Positions 29,465 through 46,024 of a DNA stretch of 64,000 nt are shown in pieces; positions within the stretch are counted from its first letter, which is position 1, and the number at the start of each line of letters is the position of its first letter. Under the pieces are notes generated by a model. It was not told the origin of the DNA and made no database searches. It saw only the letters and a list, made by a program, of their open reading frames with translations. A program made the translations under genes and the position numbers. Location: positions 30,009 to 94,008 of IMG/VR virus record IMGVR_UViG_3300009151_000044. One strand, 5' to 3'. This DNA is from a virus.

Positions 29465-31098
29465 TTTACTATTGCTTCTAGTTCGTCAAGTTTATCAATT
29501 GCGGATTCGTTGAATTCGCTGTCTTCTGCTAATTGTACAGTATTGGAATCCACTTCGTCAAATAGATTGGCAAACGATGTACTAGCATTAACAGTTTTCT
29601 TACCGCTAGCACCTCGAGTACCAATAATATCCATCCAATATTTGTTATATTCTTCAACTAGGTCGTCTGCTCGTCCTCGATCACTTGTTTCAAATATAGC
29701 ATTAACGATGTCCTTGAAAAACATGTGTTCATATTGCTTAGACGATTTTCTATTTGCGTCTAGTACACTCATCATAGCAGGCATATTACCAGCATCATAT
29801 TGGCGGTTAGCTTCTTGTACAGCATTAATATGCATCCAAACATTGTGCCCCATTTGAATAGCATAACTAAATGAATCCCAGCTAGTCTTGTTACTAACTT
29901 TACCTAACTTATTCAAGTCCGGTGTTTTAATCCAATCTGCTGGATTCATTGGGTCCGGATTAGTAATACCAGGTTTGGGAATACCAGCACCGTAGATACA
30001 AATCTCTTTCATAGTAACTTGATCTATGATTGGACTAGATTCAAATAATTTAAAGATATTATCTTGTATTACTGCGTCTTTAAAGAGTCTAGTGTCTGTT
30101 GCGTATTTTTTATTGTCTGCAGAAGACTGCATACGGTAGACCCATTTTTTACGATCTTCGGTTTCTGTGTTGATATAGATTTGTCCGTTTGCGGTAGCAA
30201 GGAACGGACTTGCGCAGTCAAAAGAGATGGTAAATTGCTCATTATGATATTTCCTTACAGCACGTTGAATGTCAGTGAGCAGTACAGCCCACTCCAATTT
30301 TGAGGTACCTAAGAAGTGCATCCAATCTTGTTCACCCTTCTCAAGCAAGCCATCAAATCTTAATGCCACTAGGCGTTTTAATACCAAGTGTACGTCACAC
30401 ATATTCTGCCCACCCATACCCCAACCGTTAAAATGACGGTCGCCGTATTGTTTAGGATCACAATACTTCTTCATGCGATCATACCAGTCGTCGGCATCGG
30501 CGTGATTTTCGCCCTGTAAAACGTTTAAGAACTTACAATTGCCGTTTCGATTATTAACAAAATAATCGTTATTAATATAAGTACCTTGTACAGCTTCTGC
30601 GTATGTACTAATGCCAGTTGCCGCAACACCAGACGGACTACGAGCTACCCACGCTGGGATATCAAGCCCCATACCATAGTCCATTAGCGTGTCCATCCAA
30701 GTTAACACTTGAGAACGTTTCTTTGCCGCTTTGGGACAATTGGGATCTTTCCAATCAGCAGGCCAAACACCTTTACCGATCTGGAAACCACCTGAGTCAC
30801 CTAACACCCAACTTGTAGATCTATTACGATTTCGGAACATGTCCTCGCTTTCGTCTTGTTTATTCAAATCAAGATTAGCATGTCCTGCGGAGTACAAACA
30901 ATGGTCATAATAAAATGCGCCTTTATCTGGGTCAAGATAGTTAAGACTTTCAACGCCATTCACAAAACTTGCCGGAATACGAGCAGGATCTACATAGTTG
31001 CTATAGCGTTGTTTACCTATAAATGTACTATAAAATCCCGATGTTGCTGGCAAGAAATATGCGTAATCGTTTTGATGTGCTGTTAAATTTTTATTCAT
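29461..31098 (-). CDS. dpdA: DpdA-like DNA 7-deazaguanine transglycosylase
   Basis: 545 residues from the ATG overlapping the upstream stop (ATGA); an ATG at 31140 with AGGA upstream would add 14. It is related to tRNA-guanine transglycosylase: WVLGDSGGFQIG (Asp101, the active-site acid), NVLQGENHAD, GWGMGGQN, MHFLGTS and SFDCASPFLATANG (Asp294 in the nucleophile position). I see no CxCxxC zinc site of canonical TGT, and the protein is longer, as in phage DpdA. It would exchange guanine in DNA for a deazaguanine base. It lies beside queD, with folE and queE 6 kb downstream. Confidence 0.85.
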   Translation of the reverse strand: MNKNLTAHQNDYAYFLPATSGFYSTFIGKQRYSNYVDPARIPASFVNGVESLNYLDPDKGAFYYDHCLYSAGHANLDLNKQDESEDMFRNRNRSTSWVLGDSGGFQIGKGVWPADWKDPNCPKAAKKRSQVLTWMDTLMDYGMGLDIPAWVARSPSGVAATGISTYAEAVQGTYINNDYFVNNRNGNCKFLNVLQGENHADADDWYDRMKKYCDPKQYGDRHFNGWGMGGQNMCDVHLVLKRLVALRFDGLLEKGEQDWMHFLGTSKLEWAVLLTDIQRAVRKYHNEQFTISFDCASPFLATANGQIYINTETEDRKKWVYRMQSSADNKKYATDTRLFKDAVIQDNIFKLFESSPIIDQVTMKEICIYGAGIPKPGITNPDPMNPADWIKTPDLNKLGKVSNKTSWDSFSYAIQMGHNVWMHINAVQEANRQYDAGNMPAMMSVLDANRKSSKQYEHMFFKDIVNAIFETSDRGRADDLVEEYNKYWMDIIGTRGASGKKTVNASTSFANLFDEVDSNTVQLAEDSEFNESAIDKLDELEAIVK

Positions 31099-40522: not shown

Positions 40523-40529
40523 TATTTAG
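40523..40529 (-). promoter_or_regulatory. T4-type late promoter motif
   Basis: CTAAATA on the minus strand, 25 nt upstream of the start at 40497 and overlapping the stop of the next gene. Confidence 0.45.
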
Positions 40530-41170
40530 CGTCTTTTAACTACTGCGGCCTTCTTTGCCGGGCCACCAAATAGGCTGCTTCCTTTAATATCTAAACCGTT
40601 TTTAGCAGTTCCGTCTTTGTTTCTAGGTTGTACAACCTTAGGTTGCGGGGGTGCTTTTGTACCACTATGCCCAGGTCTACCGATATAACTCTTCTTTCCA
40701 CGTGCTTTTCCCGGACTAATATGTGGTGCATCCACGGTACCTATACTAGCAGAACTAGTTGCTCCGGCAGTTGCTGATTCGTTAGTCGGTGCCCACCATT
40801 TACCGGGTCCAAATTCTTTGTCAGCACTATCTTTTTGCATACTAAAACTACGACCGCTTGTACTGTATTTTGCCTTAGCCCACTTTCCACTTTTAGTTTT
40901 TTTAACTCCGTACATGGCAGCTGTGTCTTCTTGTCCAGGTTGTACACTGTAAAAGTAGTAACCTTTTAATACAGGCTTATCTTCCGGTGCTTGGTAACGT
41001 TGTTGTGGCTCTTTATCCCACCCTTCGTCATTTGCACCACCATCATCTTGATATGCTTGTGATTGATGCTTGCCCATGCCGCTTACGCTAGAACGATAGT
41101 CTCGATCATAAGCACTTGGACTGCCTGGTCGACGATAATGACCGTCGGTTAAAAGTTCACGTATTTTCAT
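40526..41170 (-). CDS. Basic late protein with ELL-type N-terminus
   Basis: 214 residues, Lys/Gly/Pro/Ser-rich and largely disordered. N-terminus MKIRELLTDGHYRRPGSPSA shares the M-x-[IL]-[RN]-E-L-[LF] start of three neighbours. The middle has GYYFYSVQPGQEDTAAMYGV, a compact beta segment. The C-terminal half is basic (GKKSYIGRPGHSGTKAPPQP). It overlaps the upstream gene by 4 nt (ATGA). A DNA-associated internal head protein is plausible. Confidence 0.55.
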   Translation of the reverse strand: MKIRELLTDGHYRRPGSPSAYDRDYRSSVSGMGKHQSQAYQDDGGANDEGWDKEPQQRYQAPEDKPVLKGYYFYSVQPGQEDTAAMYGVKKTKSGKWAKAKYSTSGRSFSMQKDSADKEFGPGKWWAPTNESATAGATSSASIGTVDAPHISPGKARGKKSYIGRPGHSGTKAPPQPKVVQPRNKDGTAKNGLDIKGSSLFGGPAKKAAVVKRR

Positions 41171-41565
41171 ATGCCGTATTGATTCCGTTTAGGGTTGGCA
41201 ACAGTACTTTTTGTATTTGTACCCTCAACTTCTTCACTATTTTTTGAAGTTAGTGTTTTGCCTTTCAATCCCATATTTTTTTTGCTTTTATTAATAATCT
41301 CTTCTTCAGCGTCAGTGTAAGCGAAAGTTGCCAATTGATTAGCAGTATGACTTTTTTGATCCATTGGGTGTAGATCGTCCGGACTACCGGCCATGTTTAC
41401 ACCAAATCTATACATATCGTAATACCAACCAGGTAGTTCTGGGTAAGTGGTCATATTTTTAATTGCTGACTTATGATGAGAATGAAGTTTGCCAGTTTTG
41501 CCCTTTCTCCCGCCGTTGCCGCCGGTATCTCCAGTATCTTCGTTAAACAGTTCTCTTAAATTCAT
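41167..41565 (-). CDS. Late protein sharing its C-terminal domain with the 1120-residue fusion
   Basis: 132 residues from the ATG that overlaps the upstream stop (ATGA). N-terminus MNLRELFNEDTGDTGGNGGR is the shared short peptide. Then KSAIKNMTTYPELPGWYYDM, YRFGVNMAGSPDD and the ending STVANPKRNQYGI match residues 1015-1120 of the fusion (KASMKNMITMPDQ, YRMGIALAGAPDY, SSVAKRKKNQYGV). The two are clearly homologous over about 100 residues. The domain may be a packaging or assembly tag; its function is unknown. Confidence 0.65.
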   Translation of the reverse strand: MNLRELFNEDTGDTGGNGGRKGKTGKLHSHHKSAIKNMTTYPELPGWYYDMYRFGVNMAGSPDDLHPMDQKSHTANQLATFAYTDAEEEIINKSKKNMGLKGKTLTSKNSEEVEGTNTKSTVANPKRNQYGI

Positions 41566-41852
41566 TTGACTGGTTTCTCCCCAGTCATGTAGGGCAAGCT
41601 GAACCATAGTTTAAACCACTCGGGAGTTCCGGGTTTAATATTATGCTTTTTCATTAACTCGCCTTTAGCATTACCAGTTACACTAATATTACTACCTTGA
41701 TTGGCACGATATTCGTGTAATCTTGCTTCACCGCCAAGACCGCCTAATCCCGCTAATGCTTTTAATTCGTGTATAGGATCATCGGGAGCAAGGTAGCAAT
41801 CTTCATTGCTATCCTGATTTAAATTTTCTGCGGTGATCCTATACTGTTTCAT
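41562..41852 (-). CDS. Conserved late T4-like phage protein
   Basis: 96 residues from the ATG overlapping the dps stop (ATGA). N-terminus MKQYRITAENLNQDSNEDCY; the conserved end is NIKPGTPEWFKLWFSLPYMT followed by GEKPVK, a motif I recognise in late proteins of T4-like marine phages. Glycine-rich centre (ALAGLGGLGGEARLHEY). Function unknown; position in the late head/lysis block suggests a virion or assembly component. Confidence 0.6.
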   Translation of the reverse strand: MKQYRITAENLNQDSNEDCYLAPDDPIHELKALAGLGGLGGEARLHEYRANQGSNISVTGNAKGELMKKHNIKPGTPEWFKLWFSLPYMTGEKPVK

Positions 41853-42286
41853 TTTAAACTTGCTCTCAACATCCAACTGTGTTTCTTATGTGCGTCCTGT
41901 CGATCAGCTAAGAAATTACTTAGTCCGTGATCACCGTTTTGCTCAGCCATATCAAATGTAATACGAAATATATTAGCCATACGTTCGCTATCTTCTAACA
42001 GTTCACCTAGCATCTCACTCCATTCCGGTACAGAATTTTCATCTTTAACTTGTGTGAGCATACTAAATTTGCTATAGCTGGCAGGCGCATACACTTGTAA
42101 TGCTCGTAGTTCTTCAGCAAACTGATCAATAGCACTGTACACTTCGTCGTAAATTCTTTCGAATAACAAATGATGTTGATAAAATAAAGGACCTTCGGTA
42201 TTCCAGTGAAAGTTCTGTGCTTTTAAAGCAAACGCATATTCACTTGCGAATGCTGTTTTTAATGCTAAATGATATTTCTCGTCCAC
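41849..42286 (-). CDS. dps: Dps-like ferritin with intact ferroxidase site
   Basis: 145 residues. Dps proteins form 12-subunit cages that store iron and bind or shield DNA from oxidants. The signature is AQNFHWNTEGPLFYQHHLLF then VYSAIDQFAEELRAL. His27, His39, Asp54 and Glu58 have the spacing (12, 15, 4) of the E. coli ferroxidase ligands His51, His63, Asp78 and Glu82, so activity is probably intact. It is the only stand-alone enzyme-like gene among the late head-type genes and is coupled by ATGA to the next gene. Confidence 0.92.
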   Translation of the reverse strand: MDEKYHLALKTAFASEYAFALKAQNFHWNTEGPLFYQHHLLFERIYDEVYSAIDQFAEELRALQVYAPASYSKFSMLTQVKDENSVPEWSEMLGELLEDSERMANIFRITFDMAEQNGDHGLSNFLADRQDAHKKHSWMLRASLK

Positions 42287-42287
42287 T

Positions 42288-45200
42288 TTAAACTCCGTAT
42301 TGATTCTTTTTACGTTTTGCCACTGAACTAGTCTTATTTACAGTTGGTAACTCTTGACTACGCTTTCCTGACCAGTTTTCAATCTTACCACCACCTACTA
42401 GTAAAGAAGCTTTCTTAACCATTTCAAGTTCTTCGGGTGTATATGTTGATAGTAGAGGATCTCCGCCTAACCATGTATCACCGGCCATCTTTGTAGGATA
42501 GTCAGGGGCGCCAGCAAGGGCAATACCCATCCTGTAGTTCAAATAAGACGATCCTGTACTTGAGTTTTGATCAGGCATTGTTATCATATTTTTCATTGAT
42601 GCTTTATATTCTTTATCTAAGGGTGTTGTTTTACCCTTCATTTTATTACCTTGACCGTTTTTAGCTTCATTAATAGCACGTTCCATTTCACGAACTTGCT
42701 CGGCTAGGCGGCGCTCTTTTAACTTGGCGGCAATCGGCGCCGGAATATCTTTGTCTATTTTATCTATTGATGGCATAGCTGGTTTTATCTCTTGTGGTGT
42801 ATTTACCGGTTCTGTAGATACAGGAAGTTCAGCTGGCTCTTCCGCCGCCGGTTTAATTCTCATAAACTTTCTAGCAGTATCCATGAGTTTTTTAATCCAC
42901 GGCACTCCTAATTTCTTAACATCAAATGCCTGAGTCCAAAATTTCAATGCTTTTTCGTCTGGTAATGATAATGCTTTTCGAGCTTGCGTAAAACTAATGC
43001 CAGTACCGCCTTTGTCCGGATCGCGTTCTGTTTGAATAGTTTCAAACGTGACATCGTTATGACTACCTGGATAGCGCGGATCCTTCATGCGCTTGGCTAG
43101 CACATCCATCCATTTTTTCATGCCGGCGTATCGATCTTCACCAACCATTAGTATAATATGATTATACGGACTATCTGGAGGTAATACTAATTCTTTTTCT
43201 AATTTCTTTATAGGACTTCCACCATCCTGCCATATTTGAAACATATCAGCACGTTCTGGATACAATTTTTGCCAAGTTGCTAATTTCATTTCTGGCGGAA
43301 TCGGATCATCTGGTCCCACTGTAGGGCTAATATAAACAAACGCATCTCCGTCTAATTCATCAGCTTTATCTAACACTAAGTTAACTAACTGCTCGTGACC
43401 TTTATGGCCTACAAAGCTACCTGCTGTTACTATTGCTGTCCTTGTGCGGGTAGCACCTCCGGCAGCTTTTCTTGCTTCTCTAGCCGCTGCAATAGCATCT
43501 TGTTTGTTAGAAACTACTTGGCGTTGTTCTGCGCTAGTAACTTTAATTGGCCCGAGGCGAGTATTAAGAACAATACCTTCGTAATCCTTGCCTAGCATGT
43601 CTTTACCAATAATATTAGGATCTGAAATAATTGCTTTCTCTAAAGCTACTGCTACTGGTTGAAGTGCAGCAGCCACTTGACGTTTGCGATCATTAATGCC
43701 TTTTTCTTTACTGGTCAACATAGTTTTAAGTTCTTCTATGTTTTCTAACGGAGGTACAATTCCAGTAACATCTAATGCGCCATTTTGTGTTAGCGCATTA
43801 TTAATAAACATCACACTGCCTTGCTGTCCCAGTTCAGTTAACGATTTAACAACTTGCCTAGAATTTTTAATGTCGTCTCCACTAGTGGCATCAGATATAT
43901 GAAACGGTACTAGTGCCAGTTCTACACCTTGCGGAAGTTTGTCATAATGAATACCAACAAATTTTAATTGGCCTTCTGGTGTTTCTGTCGCAAATGGTAG
44001 GAACAATACTTCGCAAGTGACTTGTTTGTTAACTAAAAATTCTGGACCTAACTTGTCATCTACAAGTTCAACAGCTTTCATCATTTCTTCAAACAACTTG
44101 TCAAACAACTGAGCACGACCGAGTATCTCTGGATCAGTAGTTCCTTTTTCTTGATGATACTTGGCAAAGTTTGCTTCGTATCTAGGCGGAGTGCGACTAG
44201 TGCCCATAAAAGGTTTGCCGTCGGCATTTTTACCAAACCGTCCACCAAAGCCGTCTACCTTGACGTTCAACGGAATGTTTTGTATTTTAAAGTTTCCATT
44301 ACCGTCGTGTATTTCGTCTAGCAAATCTAACAAGTCTGCTGGAGGTAAATTACGTAAGTGCGGCATACCTTTTCTAAGTTTGGCAGCAACTTCAGCTTCT
44401 GCTAAAGGTTGTTTTGCTGTATTTTTATTAAGAAAATCTTGTTCGTAATTTTTACTCATTTCTACAGCACGGTCACGAAGCTCGCCGACAGTTTCATTTG
44501 GCAACCCTATATTTTCTAGCATGTAGTCAACTGCGGCAAATTTAATTTTTCTATCTCGTGCTGGGTCATTCTTGGTAATCATTTGACTACCTTTTTCAAA
44601 CAAGATATCTAAGAAACGATTAACGACCTCAGTTTTTTGTGTGTCATCATAATTTTTAGCAAGTAGCCCAACAGTACCGACAAAACTGTCTTGTGCGTTG
44701 CGCTCTTGCTTAGATGGTTTGTGACCAAAGAATGCTTCAAAGTGCGAACCAATTGATTGATCGTAGTGTCTGTCTTTTGGCTCTAGCAACTGCATAACAG
44801 GAATGCCATCCTGTACCATTGCTTCACCAGTTGCCGGATCCATATAGGGAACATACTTACGACTTAGGCCACCACCTTGACCGCCAGACACTGCAAAGCT
44901 ATAGTCGGCATCGGTAACCGGTTCTGGACTAATCTTTGTACTTTTCTTAAGTACGCGAGCAACGTATTTGGTACTAGTTTGTGCATAAGGCATCGCACGA
45001 TTGAGGTACTTGTGAAAAACACCTTTAATATTTTGTTGGATGTCATCCCAGTGCGAGCTATGACTATAGGCATACCATTCGTCTGGTTGTTCAGTAGCCG
45101 GATCGTACTTGCCAAATTCAAAATCAATTTGTAATTTAACTGGTAACTTTTCTAAGTTAACTTCCCACATACTTGAGTATTGATTGTTGCCTGGTTTAAA

Positions 45201-45650
45201 TCCGACAAATGTCGCCGGGCCGATTTGTTTTCCGATTACACCTGTTAAAAATTCTTTGACGCTGGGATCTAGTTCAACAGGAGCTTGTGTGTCAATATCA
45301 CCGACTTTAGGTTTTAATTTTACAAATTGATCATCTGTAATCTTTTTATCAAAGAAATGAAAGCTACTTCCGCTGAGATAAGACCCACTAGCGAATGCAG
45401 CTTCCGGCCATATTGGTTTGCCATATTGTTGTGAAAATGCGTTATTGATATTGATCATCAAATCATTTAATACATTTAACACAGCAGTTCTGTTATGAAC
45501 TTCTAAGTCTAAATCTTCTGCTTGATGTACGCCTGGTGTACCTTGCCAGCCAGCTGAGATCTTACCAGCTTCATCGTGGCTGGCTAGATTGCCACCCTCA
45601 GACAGTATTAGAAGTTTTCTAGTATTAACGAATAGTTCACGTAATAACAT
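42288..45650 (-). CDS. Fusion of three putative nucleotidyltransferase domains
   Basis: 1120 residues. (1) Residues 50-180: GS at 89-90, GDID at 117-120 and QID at 174-176 fit the Pol beta-type nucleotidyltransferase pattern. (2) Residues 460-710: VKVDG at 463-467 (motif I lysine), CEVLF at 546-550, YEGIVLNT at 690-697 (motif IV) and PIKV at 701-704 (motif V) fit an ATP-dependent ligase-type core. (3) Residues 740-895: AGSFVGHKGHEQL and GISFTQARKAL fit an NMNAT/cytidylyltransferase fold. The last 110 residues form a domain also found in a neighbour. The N-terminus MLLRELFVNTRKLLILSEGG is the short shared peptide. Substrates are unknown; RNA repair or NAD metabolism are options. Confidence 0.75.
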   Translation of the reverse strand: MLLRELFVNTRKLLILSEGGNLASHDEAGKISAGWQGTPGVHQAEDLDLEVHNRTAVLNVLNDLMININNAFSQQYGKPIWPEAAFASGSYLSGSSFHFFDKKITDDQFVKLKPKVGDIDTQAPVELDPSVKEFLTGVIGKQIGPATFVGFKPGNNQYSSMWEVNLEKLPVKLQIDFEFGKYDPATEQPDEWYAYSHSSHWDDIQQNIKGVFHKYLNRAMPYAQTSTKYVARVLKKSTKISPEPVTDADYSFAVSGGQGGGLSRKYVPYMDPATGEAMVQDGIPVMQLLEPKDRHYDQSIGSHFEAFFGHKPSKQERNAQDSFVGTVGLLAKNYDDTQKTEVVNRFLDILFEKGSQMITKNDPARDRKIKFAAVDYMLENIGLPNETVGELRDRAVEMSKNYEQDFLNKNTAKQPLAEAEVAAKLRKGMPHLRNLPPADLLDLLDEIHDGNGNFKIQNIPLNVKVDGFGGRFGKNADGKPFMGTSRTPPRYEANFAKYHQEKGTTDPEILGRAQLFDKLFEEMMKAVELVDDKLGPEFLVNKQVTCEVLFLPFATETPEGQLKFVGIHYDKLPQGVELALVPFHISDATSGDDIKNSRQVVKSLTELGQQGSVMFINNALTQNGALDVTGIVPPLENIEELKTMLTSKEKGINDRKRQVAAALQPVAVALEKAIISDPNIIGKDMLGKDYEGIVLNTRLGPIKVTSAEQRQVVSNKQDAIAAAREARKAAGGATRTRTAIVTAGSFVGHKGHEQLVNLVLDKADELDGDAFVYISPTVGPDDPIPPEMKLATWQKLYPERADMFQIWQDGGSPIKKLEKELVLPPDSPYNHIILMVGEDRYAGMKKWMDVLAKRMKDPRYPGSHNDVTFETIQTERDPDKGGTGISFTQARKALSLPDEKALKFWTQAFDVKKLGVPWIKKLMDTARKFMRIKPAAEEPAELPVSTEPVNTPQEIKPAMPSIDKIDKDIPAPIAAKLKERRLAEQVREMERAINEAKNGQGNKMKGKTTPLDKEYKASMKNMITMPDQNSSTGSSYLNYRMGIALAGAPDYPTKMAGDTWLGGDPLLSTYTPEELEMVKKASLLVGGGKIENWSGKRSQELPTVNKTSSVAKRKKNQYGV

Positions 45651-46024
45651 TAATAATCCTTATACTTCCCGTCACTGTGATGTTTTTTAAAATCTTCTAG
45701 CATTTTTTTACAAACTGCTTTACAAGTTTTATCTTCTAATGATTCTGGTAATTCTTTAATAGGATACTCTTCAACATACTGTTTATAGCATTCGTTAACT
45801 GCTGATTTAAACATCATCGGATCAATTTTTTCTTTTGCTTTAACGTGTTTAATACATTTAGTAATCAACGGGTAGACATGACGACGGTACATGTCATCAT
45901 CATGATTCATAAAAAATGTCAGGTCTTCAACAAGATCGAAGTCAATTTTAGTGCCGTCAAGATCTTTCTTGACAAACTCTAATTCTTTAACATCTTTGCC
46001 TTCTAATAGTTCATTAATGCGCAT
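45650..46024 (-). CDS. Conserved T4-like late protein with ELL-type N-terminus
   Basis: 124 residues. MRINELLEGKDVKELEFVKK opens with the shared ELL peptide, here followed directly by Glu-Gly. Then comes FDLVEDLTFFMNHDDDMYRR HVYPL, an all-helical domain rich in Lys and Cys (NECYKQYVEEYP, KTCKAVCKKMLEDFKKHH). I recognise the MNHDDDMYRR..YPLI pattern from T4-like marine phages, with no assigned function. A late promoter motif lies 45 nt upstream. It abuts the fusion gene. Confidence 0.6.
   Translation of the reverse strand: MRINELLEGKDVKELEFVKKDLDGTKIDFDLVEDLTFFMNHDDDMYRRHVYPLITKCIKHVKAKEKIDPMMFKSAVNECYKQYVEEYPIKELPESLEDKTCKAVCKKMLEDFKKHHSDGKYKDY

Follow-up and report, generated by a model that had tools for sequence, protein, structure and literature searches.

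Why would a phage join three different kinds of nucleotidyltransferase (NTase) in a single long protein? The question is raised by an open reading frame (ORF) of 1,120 amino acids (aa) in IMG/VR virus record IMGVR_UViG_3300009151_000044, of which positions 30,009 to 94,008 were analysed (64,000 nt, referred to here as the window; all coordinates follow its numbering, and residue numbers are those of the 1120-aa protein). The window belongs to a virus contig of 94 kb, which encodes a phage family-B DNA polymerase and a clamp loader. Our favoured answer, to which we assign a probability of roughly 0.55, is that the ORF is a T4-type phage gene for a cargo polyprotein, which would be packaged into the head, cut and injected, thereby supplying nucleic-acid end-repair enzymes together with an NAD-type enzyme.

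Three nucleotidyltransferase types in one reading frame

42288..45650, minus strand: whole ORF, 1120-aa precursor with an ATG start; 67 distinct full-length homologues

Searches of IMG/VR yielded 21 loci with the whole protein, 73 with a profile of its ligase-type domain and, with a profile of its N-terminal NTase domain, the best 80 of 170 (L-numbers below are labels of these relative loci). The 67 distinct full-length homologues come from uncultured phages, and a scan of cellular genomes returned no relatives. Every complete homologue in the whole-protein and ligase-profile sets has the order NTase, ligase-type domain, HIGH-superfamily domain; in the NTase-profile set, 73 of 79 loci are fused in this order, four encode the NTase alone and two end at a contig edge. 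Since dozens of independent contigs show the identical fusion, an assembly artefact was considered and rejected.

Fusion is not the only arrangement. Xanthomonas phage X1 encodes four adjacent genes, namely an NTase (336 aa), P0003 (334 aa), the ligase-like P0004 (286 aa) and a gene annotated as adenylyltransferase/cytidyltransferase (162 aa), and Stenotrophomonas phage Moby has a matching order (CPT_Moby_048 to 051).

A sequence-only reading of this DNA had proposed that the ORF combines a Pol-beta-type, a ligase-type and an NMNAT/cytidylyltransferase-type NTase, and the computational follow-up supports this assignment. The ligase part is borne out by structure comparison with Foldseek, the HIGH part by profile comparison and a match to PHROG_3041, and the Pol-beta part by motifs that do not vary and, at weak E-values, by a list of PDB fold matches that falls almost entirely within the superfamily; support is thus good for the ligase and HIGH domains and moderate for the NTase. 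The motifs stand where that reading had placed them (KVDGFGG at 464, CEVLF at 546, YEGIV at 690, PIKVT at 701, GSFVGHKGH at 744 and GTGISFT at 882, as well as GDIDT at 117 and QID at 174-176), with the Gly-Ser pair of the Pol-beta pattern needing correction, as described below. Each of KxDGxxxRFG, YEGI(V/I), GP(I/V)K(V/I)TS and HxGH is carried by 67/67 distinct full-length homologues, and the patterns GDIDT(Q/E) and Q(I/V)D(F/L)E are matched in 62/67. This conservation argues that the motif matches are not due to chance. Scans of the 1120-aa protein with Pfam, NCBIfam and PADLOC models gave no matches, and a single-sequence search of the PDB with the same protein returned nothing useful.

The ligase-type domain

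43452..44396, minus strand: ligase-type covalent NTase, residues 419-733, assigned from an AlphaFold2 (AF2) model, Foldseek and homology to X1 P0004
44259..44261, minus strand: K464 in motif I (KVDGFGGRFG), predicted adenylylated lysine, 67/67 homologues and also X1 and Moby
44010..44012, minus strand: E547 in motif III (CEVLF), invariant
43575..43580, minus strand: E691-G692 in motif IV (YEGIV), 67/67 homologues
43542..43544, minus strand: K703 in motif V (GPIKVTS), 67/67 homologues

Motifs I (KxDG), III, IV and V follow one another in the order typical of the covalent NTase signature. Loss of Lys464 in close homologues would have spoken against a ligase; instead, the lysine is invariant, including in X1 (KLDG) and Moby (KMDG), both of which also retain the K, D, G, EG and K of the ligase motifs. 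A signature KxDGx3RFG is common to the window family, X1 and Moby, and the ligase profile aligns with X1 P0004 at an hhalign probability of 97% (E 9e-11); when viral sequences were scanned with the X1 ligase, no relatives emerged. The AF2 model of the domain has a pLDDT of 87.6, and each of the 50 PDB matches listed by Foldseek is a ligase of RNA or DNA (best E 9e-4, prob 1.0). Integrins returned by a profile search of PDB sequences were rejected as spurious.

With a Pol-beta-like partner and DNA ligases among the fold matches, the protein could be read as a virion-carried DNA repair kit, in which Pol X-like gap filling and nick sealing would act on the incoming phage DNA. Pol mu, Pol beta and AsfvPolX do appear among the fold matches of the NTase, and just one canonical DNA ligase (PF01068) was found across eight large, possibly incomplete contigs of relatives. 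However, it is ATP-dependent RNA ligases that top the Foldseek ranking. Moreover, the AF2 model places a single helix (local residues 294-318) between motif V and the HIGH domain, too little to accommodate a DNA-ligase OB domain in its usual place, so the arrangement expected of an ATP-dependent DNA ligase, an OB domain after motif V, is lacking in the predicted model. The NMNAT-like partner, too, would have no obvious role in such a kit, and we regard this explanation as improbable.

The domain is equally hard to place among named RNA ligases. No Pfam or NCBIfam match assigns it to Rnl1 or Rnl2, and hhalign gave no match to a single T4 Rnl2 sequence or to a single T4 DNA ligase sequence. In the same eight contigs, no RNA ligases of PF09511 or PF09414 were found (PF09511 being searched without a positive control). 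Judged by its sequence, the domain thus appears to resemble ligases in motifs and fold without being a member of the Rnl1 or Rnl2 families.

The HIGH-superfamily domain

42846..43448, minus strand: HIGH-superfamily (NMNAT/FAD-synthetase-like) nucleotidylyltransferase, residues 735-935, assigned from PHROG_3041 and hhalign
43395..43406, minus strand: H749-K-G-H752, HxGH motif, 67/67 homologues

This domain is matched by PHROG_3041 ('cytidyltransferase') with an E-value of 1.9e-14. In hhalign it aligns with a set comprising X1, Moby, L021 and E. coli RibF at 92% (E 6e-7), the alignment covering HxGH to SxxxR. Both motifs and the profile match place it in the HIGH nucleotidylyltransferase superfamily.

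Does it make NAD? An explanation built on this activity holds that the HIGH domain makes NAD and that the other two enzymes attach or process NAD-capped RNA ends, or else that NAD supply is itself the purpose. Phage NAD+ synthesis has been described as a counter-defence (PMC9503650), and the stand-alone HIGH gene of X1 is closest to NMNAT models, yet stays below their cut-offs. The window domain, in contrast, matches no NCBIfam NMNAT model, and its best match in a profile search of PDB sequences is RibF, limited to the HIGH motif. We consider NAD supply or NAD-linked capping unlikely as an account of the whole protein.

The Pol-beta-like domain

44397..45596, minus strand: Pol-beta-superfamily-like NTase, residues 19-418, predicted product 44.7 kDa, assigned from AF2 and fold matches
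45366..45371, minus strand: G94-S95, conserved Gly-Ser, invariant in 49 alignment rows
45291..45299, minus strand: D118-I119-D120, predicted metal-binding DxD, invariant in 49 rows
45123..45125, minus strand: D176, third carboxylate (QIDFE), invariant

The Pol-beta superfamily signature G-S...DxD...D is present, with a spacing from G-S to D that exceeds the usual one, and every catalytic Asp is invariant in the 49-row alignment. The sequence-only reading had found this pattern, and its aspartates stand; its Gly-Ser pair, G89-S90, does not, as the invariant pair is G94-S95. Orthologues in X1, Moby, and Vibrio and Campylobacter phages carry GDID or GDVD. The AF2 model has a pLDDT of 92.3 and a pTM of 0.88, and its PDB matches are mostly Pol beta, Pol mu, MenT4, RelP and the H. 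pylori NTase (JHP933; 4o8s/4ok0). Membership of the Pol-beta superfamily is therefore likely. Within it, the domain probably represents a new or undescribed family: models from Pfam, NCBIfam and PADLOC do not connect it with RlaP or another named Pol-beta family, and its sole profile match is PHROG_19290, to which no function is assigned. Matches from profile searches of PDB sequences with this domain were discarded as spurious.

The fold matches invite a further explanation, namely that the NTase attacks the host by inactivating its tRNA through nucleotide addition at the end, in the manner of MenT or AbiEii. MenT toxins extend tRNA acceptor stems (PMC10435456), the top two matches are the H. 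pylori chains (4o8s, 4ok0) and MenT4 ranks eighth. These matches are weak, however (E 0.01-0.05, probability 0.2-0.45), AbiEii and MenT models give no sequence-family match, and the coupling to a ligase points towards repair rather than damage, all of which makes host attack a rather remote prospect.

A leader and predicted protease sites at the module borders

45597..45650, minus strand: leader, residues 1-18, MLLRELFVNTRKLLILSE, capsid-targeting-like, ending in the prohead-protease-type site LSE↓GGN (the arrow marks the predicted cut)
44394..44399, minus strand: predicted prohead-protease site LAE418↓A419 at the border of NTase and ligase, assigned from site conservation
42291..42665, minus strand: basic C-terminal module, residues 996-1120 (13.6 kDa, isoelectric point (pI) 9.7), after the predicted site INE995↓A

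The prohead protease gp21 of T4 cleaves after L/I-x-E, and the capsid-targeting sequence (CTS) of T4 is about 10 residues long (PMC9026906). The [LIV]-x-E end of the present leader agrees with this rule: all 64 homologues whose N-terminus can be read have E immediately before G(G/S)N, the P3 residue being L in 37, I in 20 and V in 7. Residues 1-16 are disordered in the AF2 model. The leader-less NTase orthologues of X1, Moby and Vibrio phages begin with M-GGN, exactly at the predicted cut point, and the orthologue of Campylobacter phage CP220 has a leader of its own (MKLSELMFILE↓GGN). Six homologues (L007, L047, L058, L091, L092, L094) carry about 105-130 extra residues before (I/L)xE↓GGN, that is, an additional N-terminal module.

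Sites of the form [LIV]xE↓[AGS] occur in the window protein only after residues 18, 418 and 995, all at module borders. Cleavage there is predicted to yield pieces of 44.7 and 63.9 kDa and a basic one of 13.6 kDa. Among the homologues, the 25 aa preceding the ligase contain [LI]xE in 48/60 cases and VxE in 10 more, as compared with [LI]xE in 16% of random windows. No cleavage-type site is found in the ligase-HIGH linker of any homologue (0/67), and tails have a site density about 10 times that of the cores and 2.6 times the shuffled expectation.

The tail beyond the HIGH domain is highly variable between homologues, and the C-terminal module of the window protein is homologous to stand-alone, leader-bearing proteins. 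Many tail modules, e.g. in L004, L018 and L036, are divided by QGVAE↓G/S/A repeats; the tail of L064 (4763-7564) contains an HD_4 phosphohydrolase domain (E 2.4e-17), and that of L035 looks ADP-ribosyltransferase-like by eye. In L021 (270-1304), a leader-bearing protein of 345 aa combines a canonical NMNAT-like domain (GRFNPPHKGH) with a C-terminal module 75% identical to residues 999-1120 of the window protein. To judge from these parts, it is probably an independent packaged NMNAT-like enzyme.

Head genes and genomic neighbourhood

Genes for gp21 (PF03420) and gp23 (PF07068) are present in 6/12 contigs of relatives, always both. The gp23 propeptides of these relatives end in LLE↓G and L(A/S/V)E↓(S/A), and the string ESATAGATS from their propeptide site recurs in small leader-bearing proteins. 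CTS-like starts are found in 160/842 distinct ORFs in the relative loci (19%; 53 of them from the present family) versus 10/5036 internal Met positions (0.2%). In the window, positions 40526-46024 hold four ORFs with a leader, among them the polyprotein gene. The other three are:

41167..41565, minus strand: neighbour starting MNLRELF, leader plus homologue of the C-terminal module
40526..41170, minus strand: neighbour starting MKIRELL, leader-bearing; its NESATAGATS resembles the gp23 propeptide site of relatives
45650..46024, minus strand: neighbour starting MRINELLEG, leader-bearing, 124 aa, directly upstream of the polyprotein gene

A similar leader-bearing gene lies upstream of the homologue in most loci. 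Leader, protease-type sites and the gp21 of relatives strongly support the earlier guess that the protein may be packaged in the head, and no other part of the interpretation is supported better. The label 'late', also given to it by the sequence-only reading, gains no backing from promoters, as the window holds no copy of TATAAATA, the late promoter of T4; its count across positions 1-64000 is 0, versus 8.0 +/- 2.8 expected, i.e. it is depleted.

Several other genes in the window were recorded, all on the minus strand:

41849..42286, minus strand: ferritin/Dps-like protein (PF00210, E 2.4e-19), the next gene downstream of that for the polyprotein; a similar protein occupies the matching place in L148
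46737..48998, minus strand: ClpA/ClpB-like AAA+ protein of 753 aa, encoded upstream of the cluster; a close homologue lies in the same place in L145
62926..63774, minus strand: papain-family cysteine protease (PF00112, E 8e-16)

One machine or several?

The sequence-only reading took the protein for one machine for RNA end repair. This part is partly contradicted: a predicted site splits the NTase from the ligase-HIGH portion, and phages of Vibrio and Campylobacter, like loci L143-L145 and L148, encode the NTase without the other two, which makes a single machine doubtful. Taken further, these observations suggest a polyvalent protein, a known class (PMC5512222), in which unrelated injected effectors with separate jobs sit on one string and are fused merely for co-packaging. 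The variable tails, carrying other modules such as the HD_4 domain of L064 between their repeats, and the leader-bearing stand-alone NMNAT-like protein of L021 fit this explanation as well. Against it stands the nearly fixed order of NTase, ligase and NMNAT-like domain despite the variation of the tails, together with the adjacency of the set in the X1/Moby lineage, both of which suggest that the ligase and HIGH parts, at least, are functionally coupled. We therefore think a polyvalent string of unrelated effectors possible, if somewhat doubtful.

The fourth gene of the X1/Moby cluster (P0003, CPT_Moby_049) is also found at L024 (8924-9925) and L098 (6911-7855). It has a D-x(n)-SxK pattern, PD-(D/E)XK nuclease-like by eye, and the profile PHROG_12709 unites CPT_Moby_049 with the ligase gene.

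Comparison with known systems

Three kinds of known system can serve as models: T4 Alt and the internal proteins for delivery, polyvalent proteins for architecture, and RlaP with its RNA ligase for chemistry. The T4 proteins, a precedent for injected enzymes (PMC9026906), share with the present system a short N-terminal leader, the L/I-x-E cut, gp21 and gp23 (here in relatives) and small basic modules. Whereas each T4 cargo is a single protein, the window precursor holds three enzyme domains with internal sites, its packaging being a prediction. The polyvalent proteins of phages and conjugative elements resemble it as large multidomain mixes of enzymes, Pol-beta NTases included, and are injected or associated with virions (PMC5512222); injection is predicted in the present case, and unlike theirs, delivery would proceed via a T4-type leader and protease. 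A term search of PMC5512222 did not find the combination of a ligase, a HIGH NTase and the present NTase.

In the RlaP system of phages, a template-independent Pol-beta NTase is paired with an NTase-type RNA ligase of the ATP-grasp kind (PMC7824862). The window protein differs in that its NTase has no Pfam match, a HIGH domain is added, and the enzymes would be packaged rather than expressed early. The four-gene cluster of X1 and Moby offers homologous NTase, ligase and NMNAT-like genes in conserved order, though as separate genes without leaders and with the fourth gene between NTase and ligase; all are annotated as hypothetical except the NMNAT-like one. Finally, the phage salvage enzymes NMNAT, NadM and NadR (PMC9503650) are also HIGH-superfamily adenylyltransferases. 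In contrast to phage NAD salvage, no NadV, Nudix or kinase partner was seen here, and the HxGH loop is divergent and one residue shorter. Neither the three-domain combination nor its use as a protease-cut polyprotein was found in the open-licence papers that were searched.

A proposed packaged and processed cargo polyprotein

From the domains, motifs, leader, conserved sites and head genes of the relatives, we infer the following sequence of events, and also what the enzymes do, on which substrate and to what biological end. The leader would direct the precursor into the prohead, where a gp21-type protease would cleave after residues 18, 418 and 995. Cleavage would free a Pol-beta-type NTase starting with GGN, an enzyme composed of the ligase and HIGH domains, and a small protein of basic character. 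These matured pieces would enter the cell along with the phage DNA. There, the NTase may add one or more nucleotides onto nucleic-acid ends, and the ligase may self-adenylylate at Lys464 and seal breaks, in RNA, perhaps tRNA, more probably than in DNA. The NMNAT-like domain may make NAD or a related dinucleotide, which would either refill a pool depleted by defence or feed the ligase.

End repair of RNA (or DNA) would be the likeliest role. RNA is favoured because RNA ligases come first in the fold ranking, because Pol-beta NTases partner RNA ligases in known phage repair (RlaP, PMC7824862) and because an NAD enzyme is in keeping with defences that deplete NAD (PMC9503650). Going further, the NTase, ligase and NAD-making enzyme may together form an end-repair kit that is delivered from the head at infection and counters tRNA or DNA breaks as well as NAD depletion before phage genes are expressed, a proposal we put forward tentatively and with some doubt.

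Several findings weigh against the cargo explanation or parts of it. The enzymes of X1 and Moby have no leader and may thus act there without packaging, and since lone NTases exist, the enzymes need not act together. A search of the window's own contig, a 94-kb fragment, revealed neither gp21 nor gp23, and head packaging is a prediction from sequence for every fused homologue. The NTase of CP220 (CPT_0100) is not among the 11 identified gel bands of that phage (PMC2853527), a method that sees abundant proteins only. The NTase has weak fold scores (best E 0.011 and TMq about 0.2), the TM-score (TMq) of the ligase reaches just 0.36-0.40 in Foldseek, and the sole computational ground for preferring RNA over DNA is the ranking of fold matches.

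Implications

The analysis brings out a divergent ligase family that is new and can be recognised by its signature, KxDGx3RFG. The combination of a leader with [LIV]xE↓[AGS] sites, in turn, provides a reading rule with which to list injected proteins across one large group of uncultured T4-type phages. Defences that cleave tRNA or deplete NAD act ahead of the early-gene response. If the cargo explanation is true, repair enzymes preloaded in the capsid would constitute a first-strike counter to such defences.

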